From positions 694,376-758,375 of the forward strand of contig NZ_FOIE01000001.1 in NCBI RefSeq assembly GCF_900111455.1: 64,000 nucleotides of DNA, given 5' to 3'. Of the stretch, positions 23,712-27,792 are shown piece after piece. The notes under the pieces were generated by a model. That model ran no database searches. It saw only the letters and a program-made list of their open reading frames with translations, and was not told the origin of the DNA. The position numbers and the translations under genes are program-made. Within the stretch, counting starts at the first letter, position 1, and the number at the start of each line of letters is the position of its first letter. The stretch comes from Geodermatophilus poikilotrophus (lineage in GTDB: Bacteria; Actinomycetota; Actinomycetes; Mycobacteriales; Geodermatophilaceae).

Positions 23712-25145
23712 CTACGAAGGTGTGGACTCCTGCAGCGGGAGGCGCACCTGGAAGCGGGTGTCCCCCGGGCGGGAGCGCACCCGCAGGTCGCCGCCGTGCC
23801 GGGTGACGACGACGCGGTAGGAGACGTCGAGGCCCAGACCGGTGCCCTGGCCGACCGGCTTGGTCGTGAAGAACGGCTCGAACACCCGTTGCCGCAGCTC
23901 CTCGGGGATGCCCGGGCCGGTGTCGGCGACCTCGACCAGGGCGCAGTCGCCGTCCCGGGCGGTGCGCAGGGTGAGCGTCCCCTCGCCGGCCATCGCGTCC
24001 AGCGCGTTGACGACCAGGTTCGTCCACACCTGGTTGAGCTCCCCCGGGTAGCCGGGCACCGGCGGCAGCGTCCGGTCGTAGTCCTTGACCACCCGCACAC
24101 CGGACGGGGTCTTGGCACTGAGCATGACCAGCGTGGCGTCGAGCCCGGCGTGCAGGTCGGTGGGCTGGTGCGGGGCGCGGTCGAGCTGCGAGTACTGGCG
24201 GGCGGCCTCGACCAGGCCGGAGATGCGGCCGGTGCTGTCGGCGATCTCGGCGAGCAGCGACTCGGTCTCCACGGCATAGGCCAGCCAACGCAGGGCGGGC
24301 TCCAGGGCGGCGGGCTCGACGGTGTCGACGACCCGCTCCAGGTCCGCGGGCCCGAGCCCGGCGCCGACGAAGACGCCGGCGAGCTCGTAAGCACCGCCGA
24401 CGTCCCGCTCGTCGAGCCAGTCGCCGAGCTCGTCCTCCCGGTCGGCGCGCTCGAGCGCGGTGGGCTCCGGGGCGCTGCCGACCCGGGCCACCAGCTCCTC
24501 CTGCAGCCCGGTCAGCGACCGCAGCACCGCGCCGTCGAGCCGGCCCTCCGACAGCAGGGCCAGCTTGTGCCGCATCCCGGCGAACCGCTCGCGCAGCGCC
24601 GCGGCGGCCCGCGACGCCGCGGCGGCCGGGTTGTTGAGCTCGTGGGTGAGCCCGGCGGTCAGCTTGCCGAGGGCCAGCAGCCGCTCCCGCTGCCCGACCA
24701 GCTCGGCGGAGTTCCGCTGACCGATGAACATGCCCTCCAGCAGGTGCACGGCCATCGGGTACCAGCGCCGGAACTGCGCGGCGAACTCGGTCGCGGGCAG
24801 CTCGAGGAAGCGGCAGTCGGTCACCGCGCGGACCGTCGCCGGGTAGCGCTGGTCGACCCGCTCGCCGACGTAGAACTGCACCGCACCGGAGTACACGCCG
24901 CGGTGCGACGTCCGCACGGTCTCGACCTCGCTGCCGCCGACCCGGCGGGACATGCTCAGCGTCCCCTCGAGGAGGACCGAGAAGCACCGGGCCGGCTCCC
25001 CCTCGACCGAGACCTCGGCGCCGGCCGGGTGGGCGACGACGGCGCCGTGGTCGGCGACCCAGGCCAGCTGCCCCTCGTCCAGGTCGGTGAAGAGGAACAG
25101 CTCGCGCAGCTCGGCAGCCGACAGCCGCTCGGCCGCCGTCGTCAC
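23712..25145 (-). CDS. Histidine kinase with N-terminal cyclic-nucleotide-binding-like domain
   Basis: 477 aa, GTG start behind GAGGAGG. Residues 10-125 form a cNMP-binding beta-barrel like that of CRP ([20 protein letters not shown], the SRRVGG and [19 protein letters not shown] strands). Then comes a kinase core with H168 in [16 protein letters not shown], a long helical insert (190-300), and the ATPase domain with [42 protein letters not shown]. No membrane helix, so cytosolic. It lies 73 bases downstream of the receiver/reductase gene, whose receiver domain is the likely phosphorylation target. The cNMP pocket arginine of true cAMP binders is not evident, so the ligand is uncertain. Confidence 0.9.
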
Positions 25146-25159
25146 GACCCCTCCTCGCC

Positions 25160-25221
25160 GGCGCTCGTCGGACTCGCTCCGAGTCGTGTCCTGCCCCCGG
25201 ATGCCCTCGCGACCTCGGTCA
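25160..25221 (-). repeat. 62-base intergenic repeat, copy A
   Basis: Shares its two ends with 58583-58644: 14 identical bases (GGCGCTCGTCGGAC) at one end and 15 of 16 (CTCGCGACCTCGGTCA) at the other, with exactly 32 divergent bases between. On the minus strand it begins with the TGA stop of the reductase gene and ends just before the GGAGG of the kinase gene. Confidence 0.6.
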
Positions 25222-26877
25222 TCTCTCCTCCAGGTACCGGTGCACGAGGGTGACCGCCATGGCGCCCTCGCCGACGGCGGAGGCGACCCGCTTCACCGAG
25301 TCCGCCCGCACGTCGCCGGCGACGAACACCCCGGGCAGGCTGGTCTCCAGCAGGTACGGGTCGCGGTCGACGTCCCAGCCGGCGGGACGGCGCCCCTCGC
25401 GCAGCAGCGCCGGGCCGGTGGGGATGAAGCCGCGCTCGTCGCGGACCACCGCGCCGTCCAGCCAGCCGGTGCGCGGCTCACCACCGATGAAGACGAACAG
25501 GTGGCTGGCCGGCAGCGTCTCCCGCTCGCCGGTCCGCGCGTCCTCCACGGTGATGGCCTCGAGGTGCCCGTCGCCCTGCGCGCCGGCCACGGTGGTGCAG
25601 GTGCGGACGGAGATCGACCCGATGCCGGCGATCTGCTCGACCAGGTAGGCCGACATGGAGGCCTCCAGCGACGCCCCCCGGACCAGCAGGCACACCGAGC
25701 GCGCGTACCGGGCGAAGAACACCGCCGCCTGGCCCGCGGAGTTGGCCCCGCCCACGATGTAGACGTCGCTGTCGGCGCACTCGGCGGCCTCGGTCATCGC
25801 CGAGCCGTAGTACACGCCGCGGCCGGTCAGGTCGTCCACGCCGTCCACACCGAGGCTGCGGTAGGAGACGCCGGTGGCCAGGACGACGGCGTGCGCGGCG
25901 ATGCGGCGGCCGTCGTCGAGGTGGAGCACCCGCTTGGGCCCGTGCGCCTCGAGCGTCACGACGTCACGGGCCAGCAGCAGCTCGGCGCCGAACTTGACCG
26001 CCTGGCGGCGGGCCCGGTCGGCCAGCTGCCCGCCCGAGACGCCGTCGGGGAAGCCGAGGTAGTTCTCGATCCGGCTGCTCTGCCCGGCCTGCCCGCCGGT
26101 GGCCTCCCGCTCGACGAGCACGGTGCGCAGCCCCTCGGACGCGCCGTAGACCGCGGCGCCCAACCCGGCCGGCCCGCCGCCGACCACGACCAGGTCGTAG
26201 AACTCCTCCCGCGGGTCGACGGCCAGCCCGACGACGGCGGCGAGCTCGGCCTCGCCCGGGTGCCGGAGCACCCGCGCGTCCGGGGTGACGACGATGGGGA
26301 CGTCGTCCGGACCGGCGCCGGCGGCAGCGAGGATCCGCTGTCCGTCCGGCTCGTCGGCGTTGAACCAGCGGTACGGGACGGCGTTGCGGGCCAGCAGGTC
26401 GCGGGCGCGGAAGGACGGGGCCGACCAGCGGTGGCCGACCAGCTTGACGCCGTGCACCTCGGGGTCGGGCGTCTCGTGCCAGGCGGTCAGCATGGCGTCG
26501 ACGGTGCGGTAGAGCTTCTCCTCGGGCGGGTCCCAGGGCTTGAGCAGGTAGGCGTCGACGTCGACGTCGTTGATGGCCGCGATGGCCGCGTCGGTGTCGG
26601 CGTAGGCGGTGAGCAGCGCGCGGCGGGCCCGCGGGACCAGGTCCATCGCCCGCTCCAGGAACTCGATGCCGTTCATCTCCGGCATCCGGTGGTCGGCCAG
26701 CAGCATCGCCACCGGCTCGCCACGCAGCTTGAGCTCCCGGAGCGCCTCGAGGGCCTCGGCGCCGGAGCCGGCGCGCAGCACCCGGTACGCGTCGCCGTAC
26801 TTCCGGCGCAGGTCACGGGCGACGGCGCGGGAGACCTGCGGGTCGTCGTCGACGGTGAGCAGCACGGGTCGGCCCAT
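25219..26877 (-). CDS. Receiver domain fused to thioredoxin-reductase-like flavoprotein lacking CxxC
   Basis: 552 aa from ATG at 26877 behind AGGAGG. Residues 1-125 are a receiver with D11/D12, phospho-acceptor D62 (LLADHRMPEMNG), T in LLTAY and K in YLLKPW. Residues 130-225 are a thioredoxin-fold-like connector (ARNAVPYRWFNADEPDGQRI). Residues 230-550 form an FAD/NADPH reductase: VVVGGGPAGLGAAVYGASEG, SSRIENYLGFPDGVSG, VLATGVSYR, VYIVGGANSAGQAA, GVFVAGDVR. The CxxC that thioredoxin reductases carry between the NADPH-domain entry and the GG(A/G)NSAG motif is replaced by GVYYGSAMTEAAEC, so the classical disulfide relay is absent. Probably a phosphorylation-controlled NAD(P)H-using protein. The downstream kinase is its likely partner. 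Confidence 0.92.
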   Translation of the reverse strand: MGRPVLLTVDDDPQVSRAVARDLRRKYGDAYRVLRAGSGAEALEALRELKLRGEPVAMLLADHRMPEMNGIEFLERAMDLVPRARRALLTAYADTDAAIAAINDVDVDAYLLKPWDPPEEKLYRTVDAMLTAWHETPDPEVHGVKLVGHRWSAPSFRARDLLARNAVPYRWFNADEPDGQRILAAAGAGPDDVPIVVTPDARVLRHPGEAELAAVVGLAVDPREEFYDLVVVGGGPAGLGAAVYGASEGLRTVLVEREATGGQAGQSSRIENYLGFPDGVSGGQLADRARRQAVKFGAELLLARDVVTLEAHGPKRVLHLDDGRRIAAHAVVLATGVSYRSLGVDGVDDLTGRGVYYGSAMTEAAECADSDVYIVGGANSAGQAAVFFARYARSVCLLVRGASLEASMSAYLVEQIAGIGSISVRTCTTVAGAQGDGHLEAITVEDARTGERETLPASHLFVFIGGEPRTGWLDGAVVRDERGFIPTGPALLREGRRPAGWDVDRDPYLLETSLPGVFVAGDVRADSVKRVASAVGEGAMAVTLVHRYLEER

Positions 26878-26989
26878 GGCGGCCTCCTGTCCGGCCCTGC
26901 CGGACCGATGAGGTGCGGGAGGACGGCGTCGTTGCCGGGTGACCGCCACGCTAGCCCGGCGGAGCAGCGGTGCGACAGCCTCGCCCGGC

Positions 26990-27358
26990 TCAGGCGCGGT
27001 GGACCGGCTCCGGGAACGTCTCGCGCACCGCCACCATGTCGAGCCCGCGGATCGTGGCGATGAGCAGCTCGACGGAGTCCTCGGGCAGCCAGCCCGGCTC
27101 GGCGAACACCGGCACCCCGTCGCGGAAGACCATGAGGCTCGGCGCCCGCTCGACGCCGACCGCGGCCGCCAGCGCCGGCTCGGCGGGCAGGTCGACGGCT
27201 CGGAACCGCAGGTCGGGGTGGCGGTGGGCGGCGGCGTCGAAGACCTCCGCGAACGCGCGGCTCGAGCCCGACCCCGCGTCGCGGAAGTCGACCAGCACGA
27301 TGCCCGCGGCCTGCGTCGCGGCCGCGAAGTCCTCCCCGGAGAGGCTCGTCGTCCCCAT
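26990..27358 (-). CDS. Thioredoxin-like protein without the CxxC active site
   Basis: 122 aa from ATG at 27358. The thioredoxin beta-alpha-beta order is visible (IVLVDFRDAGSGSSRAFAEV, LRFRAVDLPAEPALAAAVGV, the cis-proline loop RAPSLMVFRDG). WCGPC, however, is replaced by RDAGSGS; the protein has no cysteine at all. It therefore cannot exchange disulfides and more likely binds or scaffolds. It lies 112 bases upstream of the reductase-like fusion on the same strand and is divergent from the UBP zinc-finger gene. This neighbourhood recurs in actinobacteria as far as I recall. Confidence 0.85.
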   Translation of the reverse strand: MGTTSLSGEDFAAATQAAGIVLVDFRDAGSGSSRAFAEVFDAAAHRHPDLRFRAVDLPAEPALAAAVGVERAPSLMVFRDGVPVFAEPGWLPEDSVELLIATIRGLDMVAVRETFPEPVHRA

Positions 27359-27444
27359 GCTGACCTCCGTCCCCCCGACCGAGTGTGCCCCGCCGGCCGC
27401 GCGACGGCTTCCGGGAGCCGGTGCCCGTCCCTACCGTGACCGGC

Positions 27445-27792
27445 GTGGACGCTGCTGCTGCGATCGACCCCTCGGTACCGCCCAGCGGGACCGGCTGCCT
27501 GGAGTGCGACGCCACCGGGGGGTGGTGGTTCCACCTGCGCCGCTGCGCCGCGTGCGGGCACGTCGGCTGCTGCGACAGCTCGCCGTCGCAGCACGCCCGC
27601 CGGCACGCCGCCGAGACCGGGCACCCGGTCATCCGCAGCTTCGAGCCCGGGGAGCGCTGGTTCTGGGACTTCACCCGGGACGAGGTCGTCGCCGGCCCCG
27701 ACCTCGCGCCCCCCGCGCACCACCCGCTCGACCAGCCGGCGCCGGGCCCCCGCGGCCGGGTGCCCGCCGACTGGCGGTCCCGGCTGCACTGA
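27445..27792 (+). CDS. UBP-type zinc-finger protein
   Basis: 115 aa from GTG at 27445, with TACCGT seven bases upstream (leaderless). The ZnF-UBP fold binds the C-terminal tail of ubiquitin in eukaryotes; bacterial stand-alone versions are common in actinobacteria with unknown ligands. Zinc-ligand pattern: GCLECDATGGWWFHLRRCAACGHVGCCD, then SQHARRHAAETGHPV and WFWDF. It is divergent from the thioredoxin-like/reductase/kinase genes. That context suggests a role in the same signalling cluster, perhaps recognising a glycine-tailed peptide (inference). A small dyad GTCGGC-TCA-GCCGAC follows the stop (27797-27811). Confidence 0.9.
   Translation: MDAAAAIDPSVPPSGTGCLECDATGGWWFHLRRCAACGHVGCCDSSPSQHARRHAAETGHPVIRSFEPGERWFWDFTRDEVVAGPDLAPPAHHPLDQPAPGPRGRVPADWRSRLH

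Follow-up and report, generated by a model that had tools for sequence, protein, structure and literature searches.

The closest described relatives of the protein considered here are thioredoxin reductases (TrxR) and their fusions. It is encoded in a four-gene locus (positions 23,712-27,792) within a 64,000-nucleotide stretch of the genome of Geodermatophilus poikilotrophus (contig NZ_FOIE01000001.1, 694,376-758,375; hereafter the window), and it joins a receiver domain, a glutaredoxin (Grx)-fold domain and a TrxR-like part. The fusion has the fold, the flavin adenine dinucleotide (FAD) motif and the dinucleotide domain of TrxB (TIGR01292), but lacks the CxxC and HRRxxxR motifs and carries the receiver and Grx domains in addition. 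AhpF and intact Grx-TrxR fusions (L057 and L186-L190) likewise place a thioredoxin-fold domain before the TrxR part; these intact fusions, which are the nearest rows outside the thiol-less clade described below, keep both dithiols (WCxDC and CATC), measure ~400 aa and have no signalling domain. Within the thiol-less clade, a sister architecture named ‘cyclic nucleotide-binding domain-containing thioredoxin-disulfide reductase’ in databases carries a cyclic nucleotide-binding (cNMP) barrel where the window fusion has its receiver, often occurs with a UBP zinc-finger gene and is situated, at 7 of 12 loci, in a DnaK-ClpB region. Bacterial ZF-UBP domains were reportedly placed in a cyclic nucleotide-dependent redox signalling system by Burroughs, Iyer and Aravind (2011; Mol Biosyst 7:2261). 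That system, as reported, shares with the present locus a UBP gene beside cNMP-type and TrxR-like genes, and because of it the list of parts was probably predicted already; the locus differs in being a two-component version in which neither the dithiols nor the cAMP-contact residues are kept and lone conserved cysteines remain. The additions made here are a single ancient loss of both dithiols, a hidden Grx domain, a non-canonical barrel, near-exclusive pairing with a kinase and the link to DnaK-ClpB regions.

Further parallels come from three papers. FFTR and DDOR of cyanobacteria are, like the fusion, specialised TrxR relatives (PMC9025218), but they keep the CxxC and lack the NADPH motif, whereas the fusion lost the CxxC and kept the dinucleotide fold. 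A thioredoxin lacking its catalytic cysteines is able to bind response regulators, with contact sites in the linker and C-terminal part of OmpR (PMC9584953); this docking without thiol exchange likewise employs a thioredoxin fold that lacks cysteines, although the docking thioredoxin is a separate protein and the Grx domain of the fusion is built in. SCO7298, a putative thioredoxin reductase upregulated after pH shock in Streptomyces coelicolor (PMC2631018), might be a member of the family. The literature search returned, among the matches listed, no title or start of an abstract on the fusion or on UBP domains with TrxR.

Loss of both dithiols from a receiver-glutaredoxin-reductase fusion

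Pfam recognized Response_reg and Pyr_redox_2 in the fusion and no DNA-binding domain. The receiver is intact, with Asp10-12, Asp62, Thr90 and Lys113 invariant in a 50-row alignment and kept in 115-126 of the 130 rows of a wider protein set. This set comprises the window protein, 49 proteins from the loci of relatives (paralogues included) and 80 from named loci, the latter being the best 80 of 588 matches, actinobacterial going by title and favouring near relatives. Hand-picked regions numbered 20 for paralogues and 20 for the family. Paralogues of the fusion at L043-L054 have mostly degenerate receivers, in which the phosphate-accepting Asp or the acidic pair is lost.

The domain between receiver and reductase is a third former redox domain. 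Searched alone, it matched no Pfam family, so its assignment as a glutaredoxin rests on profile and fold comparison. Its profile aligned with the intact Grx domain of L057 at an hhalign probability of 97.7; the receiver reached 0.1, and none of 20 shuffles exceeded 1.4. Fold lists for the whole model (best 50) held nearly only TrxR and AhpF, so the middle domain was modelled separately; the AlphaFold model (predicted local distance difference test (pLDDT) 89.9) has the order beta-alpha-beta-alpha-beta-beta-alpha. The nearest solved folds are Grx-like, including 3zit (Z 12.9, root-mean-square deviation (rmsd) 1.6 over 76 residues), NrdH and Mrx1, and N-terminal domains of GST and Spx also appear in the fold list. 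Foldseek gave no match with E < 0.001, the best being Mrx1 at 2.3e-3. Because this domain combines a Grx fold with WSAPS at its active site, the protein is a receiver-Grx-TrxR fusion from which both dithiols are gone. Only 6 of the 130 rows have any Cys within the Grx motif, and 5 of these 6 lack the first Cys.

The full AlphaFold model of the fusion is moderate (pLDDT 78.1, predicted template modelling score 0.55), and its C-terminal part matches thioredoxin reductases best among PDB structures (Z 29.5, rmsd 3.7, 299 residues). The score against TIGR01292 is 211.2 bits, below the cut-off of 343.45. The TrxR-type FAD-binding motif GxGPAG and fold are present, and FAD binding is predicted. GSAM stands in place of the reductase CxxC, exactly as the preliminary description of this DNA had stated. 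At the NADPH 2'-phosphate motif HRRxxxR, the fusion has LVRGASLEAS where the TrxB of the same genome has VHRREELRA, and three of the four residues are replaced in an alignment read by eye. Loss of this motif makes NADH likelier than NADPH and weakly suggests an NADH preference; of the NAD(P)H sensing proposed earlier, the NADPH part is thus weakened. Sensing through the FAD/NAD sites is plausible. The fusion also retains a cysteine, Cys367, which is present in 114 of the 130 proteins and in 39 of 62 thiol-less tree rows.

Absence of the reductase CxxC extends to 129 of the 130 proteins, the sole exception being L057, a receiver-less glutaredoxin-reductase. In a tree of 69 rows, built by a quick method with the motif columns excluded and with the Shimodaira-Hasegawa approximate likelihood ratio test (SH-aLRT) as its only branch support, one branch (SH-aLRT 100) separates 62 thiol-less rows from 7 intact rows, which are the genome's own TrxB and only 6 Grx-TrxR fusions, all six from families of the phylum other than that of the window genome. 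Members of the thiol-less clade come from Actinomycetota, Deinococcota, Cyanobacteriota and Pseudomonadota, and the cNMP-Grx-TrxR sister proteins belong to it. Both dithiols appear to have been lost once, anciently, ahead of the family's spread to four or more phyla; the loss is a family-wide rule and no peculiarity of the protein in which it was first noticed, so that the refuting condition named in the preliminary description, homologues with intact CxxC as the rule, does not hold. Length leaves room for an extra N-terminal domain in 61 of the 62 thiol-less rows (the exception is L207, 442 aa), and where inspected this extra domain is a receiver, a degenerate receiver or a cNMP barrel. Judged by this distribution over the tree rows, loss of the dithiols and gain of a signalling domain probably go together. 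In all four phyla members are annotated as FAD-dependent oxidoreductase or cyclic nucleotide-binding thioredoxin-disulfide reductase; for the cNMP-fused sisters, ‘disulfide-reductase’ is a name at odds with the residues. For 32 pairs, each made up of one of the four genes and a relative, ratios of non-synonymous to synonymous substitution (dN/dS) by the Nei-Gojobori method, which is rough at such a GC content, ranged from 0.09 to 0.62, and since all are below 1 the four genes show no sign of decay.

Pairing with a histidine kinase and a UBP zinc-finger protein

A kinase gene accompanies the fusion in all 80 named loci; in 79 it is the adjacent gene, and in the remaining locus a single gene intervenes. 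Full-length loci of Deinococcus, Nostoc, Caballeronia and Gloeothece each hold a kinase relative inside their 5 kb stretch (4/4), with a transposase and a channel gene between it and the fusion in Nostoc. The H, N and G boxes of the kinase and the receiver Asp, Thr and Lys are all present, as in a two-component system; His168 and Asn380 are found in 118 of 118 kinase rows and Asp408 in 117. Pfam detected HATPase_c and cNMP_binding, whereas HisKA fell under its cut-off; an insertion of ~110 residues seems, as read from the sequence, to split the two helices of the phosphotransfer domain. The preliminary description gave the kinase a cNMP domain, and the cNMP-type domain is indeed there, but the barrel lacks the cAMP-contact residues, which weakens the case for cyclic-nucleotide sensing: in a HMMER alignment the cassette Glu is Ala88 (109 of 118 rows) and the Arg is Tyr101 (113 of 118). 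DNR, a barrel that is not known to use cAMP, also aligns a Tyr with Tyr101. Cys54 of the kinase barrel is kept in 100 of 118 rows.

The UBP protein scores 55.6 bits against PF02148 and has a solved bacterial relative, 2ida (E 1.9e-22). Its zinc ligands and fold are present, the Cys and His columns being kept in 47-49 of 49 rows. Of the residues of the tail-binding pocket of USP5, whose numbering agrees with the alignment, the tryptophan is kept (W48, 49/49 rows), aromatic residues occupy the two tyrosine positions in 46 of 49 rows (three gaps), and Arg221, the carboxylate-binding residue, is His59 in 48 of 49 (one gap). Binding of a ubiquitin-type tail, the question raised in the preliminary description, may be possible with such a pocket. 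UBP genes were found in 38 of the 80 named loci by tblastn and in 36 by gene clusters. They are downstream and co-directional in 37 of the 38 loci; the single exception resembles the window in having UBP upstream and divergent. When the called genes of the 80 named loci, some of which end at contig ends, were clustered, none besides kinase and UBP occurred in more than 10 loci. The grouping of kinase, receiver-reductase and UBP gene made in the preliminary description therefore represents a real conserved module.

The association also appears at the level of genomes. UBP was found in 34 of 41 relatives, and of 51 UBP genes in relatives 22 are no more than 5 kb away from a family member, family rows being counted without canonical TrxR and weaker matches. 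Across 149 genomes of the phylum, 31 encode UBP and 34 match the family profile. In five of the 34, the intact type alone is represented among the matches listed, and none of the five has UBP; thiol-less members occur in 29 of the 149 genomes, 21 of them with UBP (Fisher p 5e-12, kinship ignored). Neither a fusion orthologue nor a kinase match at E 1e-40 was found in genomes G016 and G012, while G000 and G009, run as controls, did match. UBP and the thioredoxin-like gene persist in G016, and G012 is without UBP. At the corresponding locus of G016 (L180, 8452-10742), none of the MFS, methyltransferase, kinase and fusion genes that the window has there lies between the symporter and the thioredoxin-like gene; with UBP kept, this looks like a clean loss. 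In Rhizobium leguminosarum (L171, 5034-8367), a UBP gene and a reductase-like gene adjoin an annotated cyclic nucleotide-gated ion channel.

Sister proteins in DnaK-ClpB regions

The loci of the cNMP-fused sisters place UBP and the thiol-less reductase beside protein disaggregation. Among 12 hand-picked cNMP-type loci, three of them from one genus, clpB, a thioredoxin with intact CxxC and UBP occur together in 7; in the remaining 5, no clpB was found within the stretch fetched. The 7 clpB loci come from three genomes of the genus studied here, Rhodococcus, Streptomyces and two other relatives, and their thioredoxins read WCGPC in 5 and WCAPC in 2. Where the stretch reaches far enough, dnaK, grpE, a DnaJ-type gene and cbpM are present as well; in L182, UBP is on the far side of dnaK. 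The heat-shock cluster, in the order dnaK-grpE-dnaJ-cbpM-clpB-trx-UBP-cNMP/Grx/TrxR, is seen in L174 (1-6201), L175 (1-10496), L176 (6441-15340), L170, L193, L209 and L182, some of these stretches being partial, and its hosts are actinobacterial genomes as well as Rhodococcus and Streptomyces plasmids. A DUF1931 gene follows the cluster in L174, L175, L170 and L193.

Organization of the locus and its thioredoxin-like neighbour

All four reading frames reported in the preliminary description are present (Table 1). On the minus strand, the order of transcription is thioredoxin-like gene, fusion and kinase, with intergenic gaps of 112 and 73 bases. The UBP gene runs in the opposite direction, its listed start 26 bases from that of the thioredoxin-like gene. 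This UBP start is doubtful, since most tblastn alignments with relatives set in only around codons 18-27, and the true start may lie some 18-27 codons further in. A search for sigma-70 promoters and terminators found none.

Table 1 Features of the four-gene locus (window coordinates)
Feature	Position	Strand	Details
Soluble histidine kinase	23712-25145	-	cNMP-type barrel (N-terminal), HisKA (His168), insertion, HATPase_c
Receiver / thiol-less glutaredoxin / thiol-less thioredoxin-reductase fusion	25219-26877	-	552 aa; ATG at 26877
Receiver domain of fusion	26488-26877	-	Residues 1-130; Pfam Response_reg
Glutaredoxin-fold middle domain of fusion	26212-26457	-	Residues 141-222; hhalign and fold comparison
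WSAPS at place of glutaredoxin WCxxC	26413-26427	-	Fusion middle domain
Thioredoxin-reductase-like FAD/NAD-binding part	25222-26205	-	Residues 225-552; Pyr_redox_2, PDB matches
GSAM at place of reductase CxxC	25795-25806	-	Fusion residues 358-361
Cys-less thioredoxin-like protein	26990-27358	-	Pfam Thioredoxin; local neighbour, probably not a core part
UBP zinc-finger protein	27385-27792	+	PF02148 (zf-UBP); divergent transcription

The thioredoxin-like protein contains no cysteine at all, in agreement with the first account of it. Its WCGPC is replaced, as that account also said, but alignment by HMMER with a solved thioredoxin puts GSGSS at the site, not quite the RDAGSGS first given. The protein scores 36.2 bits against TIGR01068, below the cut-off of 96.8. 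The gene is present at ≥60% identity in 24 of 26 genomes of the genus, and the active site in 20 genus copies (L146-L165) plus L179 reads WCGPS once (L179), WYGPS once (L163) and is of SGSS type in 19. Within 1.5-kb flanks it neighbours the fusion at 7 of the 29 loci compared from relatives, and it matched in none of the 80 named loci; in G023 it adjoins TetR and MFS genes, and its surroundings differ again in G004, G021 and G012. The absence from the 80 loci and these other surroundings led us to reject it as a core partner, the role first assigned to it; it is a conserved genus-level gene that has become a neighbour.

Discussion

We infer a kinase-controlled output that binds FAD/NAD(H), with UBP as a peptide-binding partner and a tie to protein-folding stress. 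The reading we prefer, at slightly less than even confidence, is that the locus encodes a conserved two-component module in which the output of the response regulator is a flavoprotein and not a DNA-binding domain. The fusion probably senses or signals through its bound cofactors and not through thiol electron transfer. A signal would be read by the non-canonical cNMP-type barrel of the kinase, which would then phosphorylate the receiver at Asp62; phosphorylation would rearrange the reductase domains, with the cysteine-free Grx domain acting as a linker or docking piece, and the output protein would report or use its bound FAD/NAD(H) without a thiol relay. UBP would bind a peptide or protein C-terminus and so connect the module with a client, protein-folding stress being the probable setting. 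This reading is supported by the intact phosphotransfer residues of kinase and receiver, the lack of a recognized DNA-binding domain in the fusion, the presence of the kinase in all 80 loci, the recurrence of UBP in loci and genomes, the almost complete absence of the CxxC with one loss on the tree, and ClpB in 7 of the 12 sister loci. The Grx domain is cast as a cysteine-free docking part on the precedent of the docking thioredoxin (PMC9584953). A more far-reaching scenario is distinctly more tentative: a thiol relay of Grx and TrxR would have been converted once, early, into a Cys-independent signal protein that reads FAD/NAD(H), is switched by a kinase or a cNMP barrel and is coupled through UBP to protein-folding stress.

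Several observations weigh against the module as just described. The literature search found no biochemistry on any family member, and the possible NADH preference comes from a motif read from an alignment. The conservation of Cys367 and Cys54 makes a single-thiol redox function possible. No kinase match was found in the 11-kb stretches around the paralogues L043-L054, and together with their degenerate receivers this indicates that phosphorylation is not needed family-wide. Among the UBP genes of relatives, 29 of 51 lie farther than 5 kb from a family member. Finally, the absence of fusion and kinase from G012 and G016, the latter with UBP, indicates that the module is dispensable and that UBP is able to stand alone.

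The fusion could instead be a different enzyme, an NAD(P)H oxidase or an NADH:acceptor (quinone, ferredoxin or flavodoxin) reductase switched by receiver phosphorylation. We regard this as the most serious of the alternatives, if on balance doubtful: the FAD and NAD folds are kept, dN/dS points to purifying selection and the PDB relatives of the fusion include ferredoxin-NADP reductases of the TrxR-like type, which are not known to use thiols, yet the 80 loci hold no gene other than kinase and UBP that occurs in over 10 of them and the NADPH 2'-phosphate motif is lost. A cyclic nucleotide-dependent redox-signalling system, as reportedly proposed for bacterial ZF-UBP domains, would use the same parts (UBP, a cNMP-type domain and a TrxR-like protein), and a thioredoxin with intact CxxC is present in 7 of 7 sister ClpB loci. 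It is unlikely here, given that the thiol centres of Grx and TrxR are both lost and that the cAMP-contact Glu and Arg are replaced in the kinase barrel; the 12 fused barrels, compared by eye and without an alignment, also have no Arg at the matching place, although several keep the Glu. Unlikelier again is that the lone cysteines, Cys367 of the fusion and Cys54 of the kinase, form a real redox switch, a single-thiol sensor in place of the dithiol relay: both are conserved and Cys367 occurs in the receiver and cNMP branches alike, but it is missing from 23 of the 62 thiol-less tree rows.

Very little suggests that UBP recognizes Pup, the protein tag of actinobacteria, by its C-terminal tail. 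The genome encodes Pup and the aromatic residues of the tail pocket are kept, but UBP has His at the position of Arg221, and UBP-reductase pairs also occur in Rhizobium and Burkholderia, which are not known to have Pup. Local decay of the thioredoxin system in this genome, for which the gradient from WCGPS through WYGPS to SGSS in the thioredoxin-like gene within the genus might be cited, is rejected for the fusion by the tree, on which the loss is family-wide and ancient, and by dN/dS below 1 in all 32 pairs, and is the least credible explanation of all.

The residues for disulfide reduction are gone in every examined member of the thiol-less clade, despite their annotation. Were the early conversion of a thiol relay true, an entire class of proteins annotated as disulfide reductases would turn out to be sensors of metabolic state. 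If the output of the two-component module is a cofactor sensor, a connection of two-component signalling with the NADH state of the cell and with the chaperone network would become directly testable, and a function would be offered for bacterial UBP fingers.

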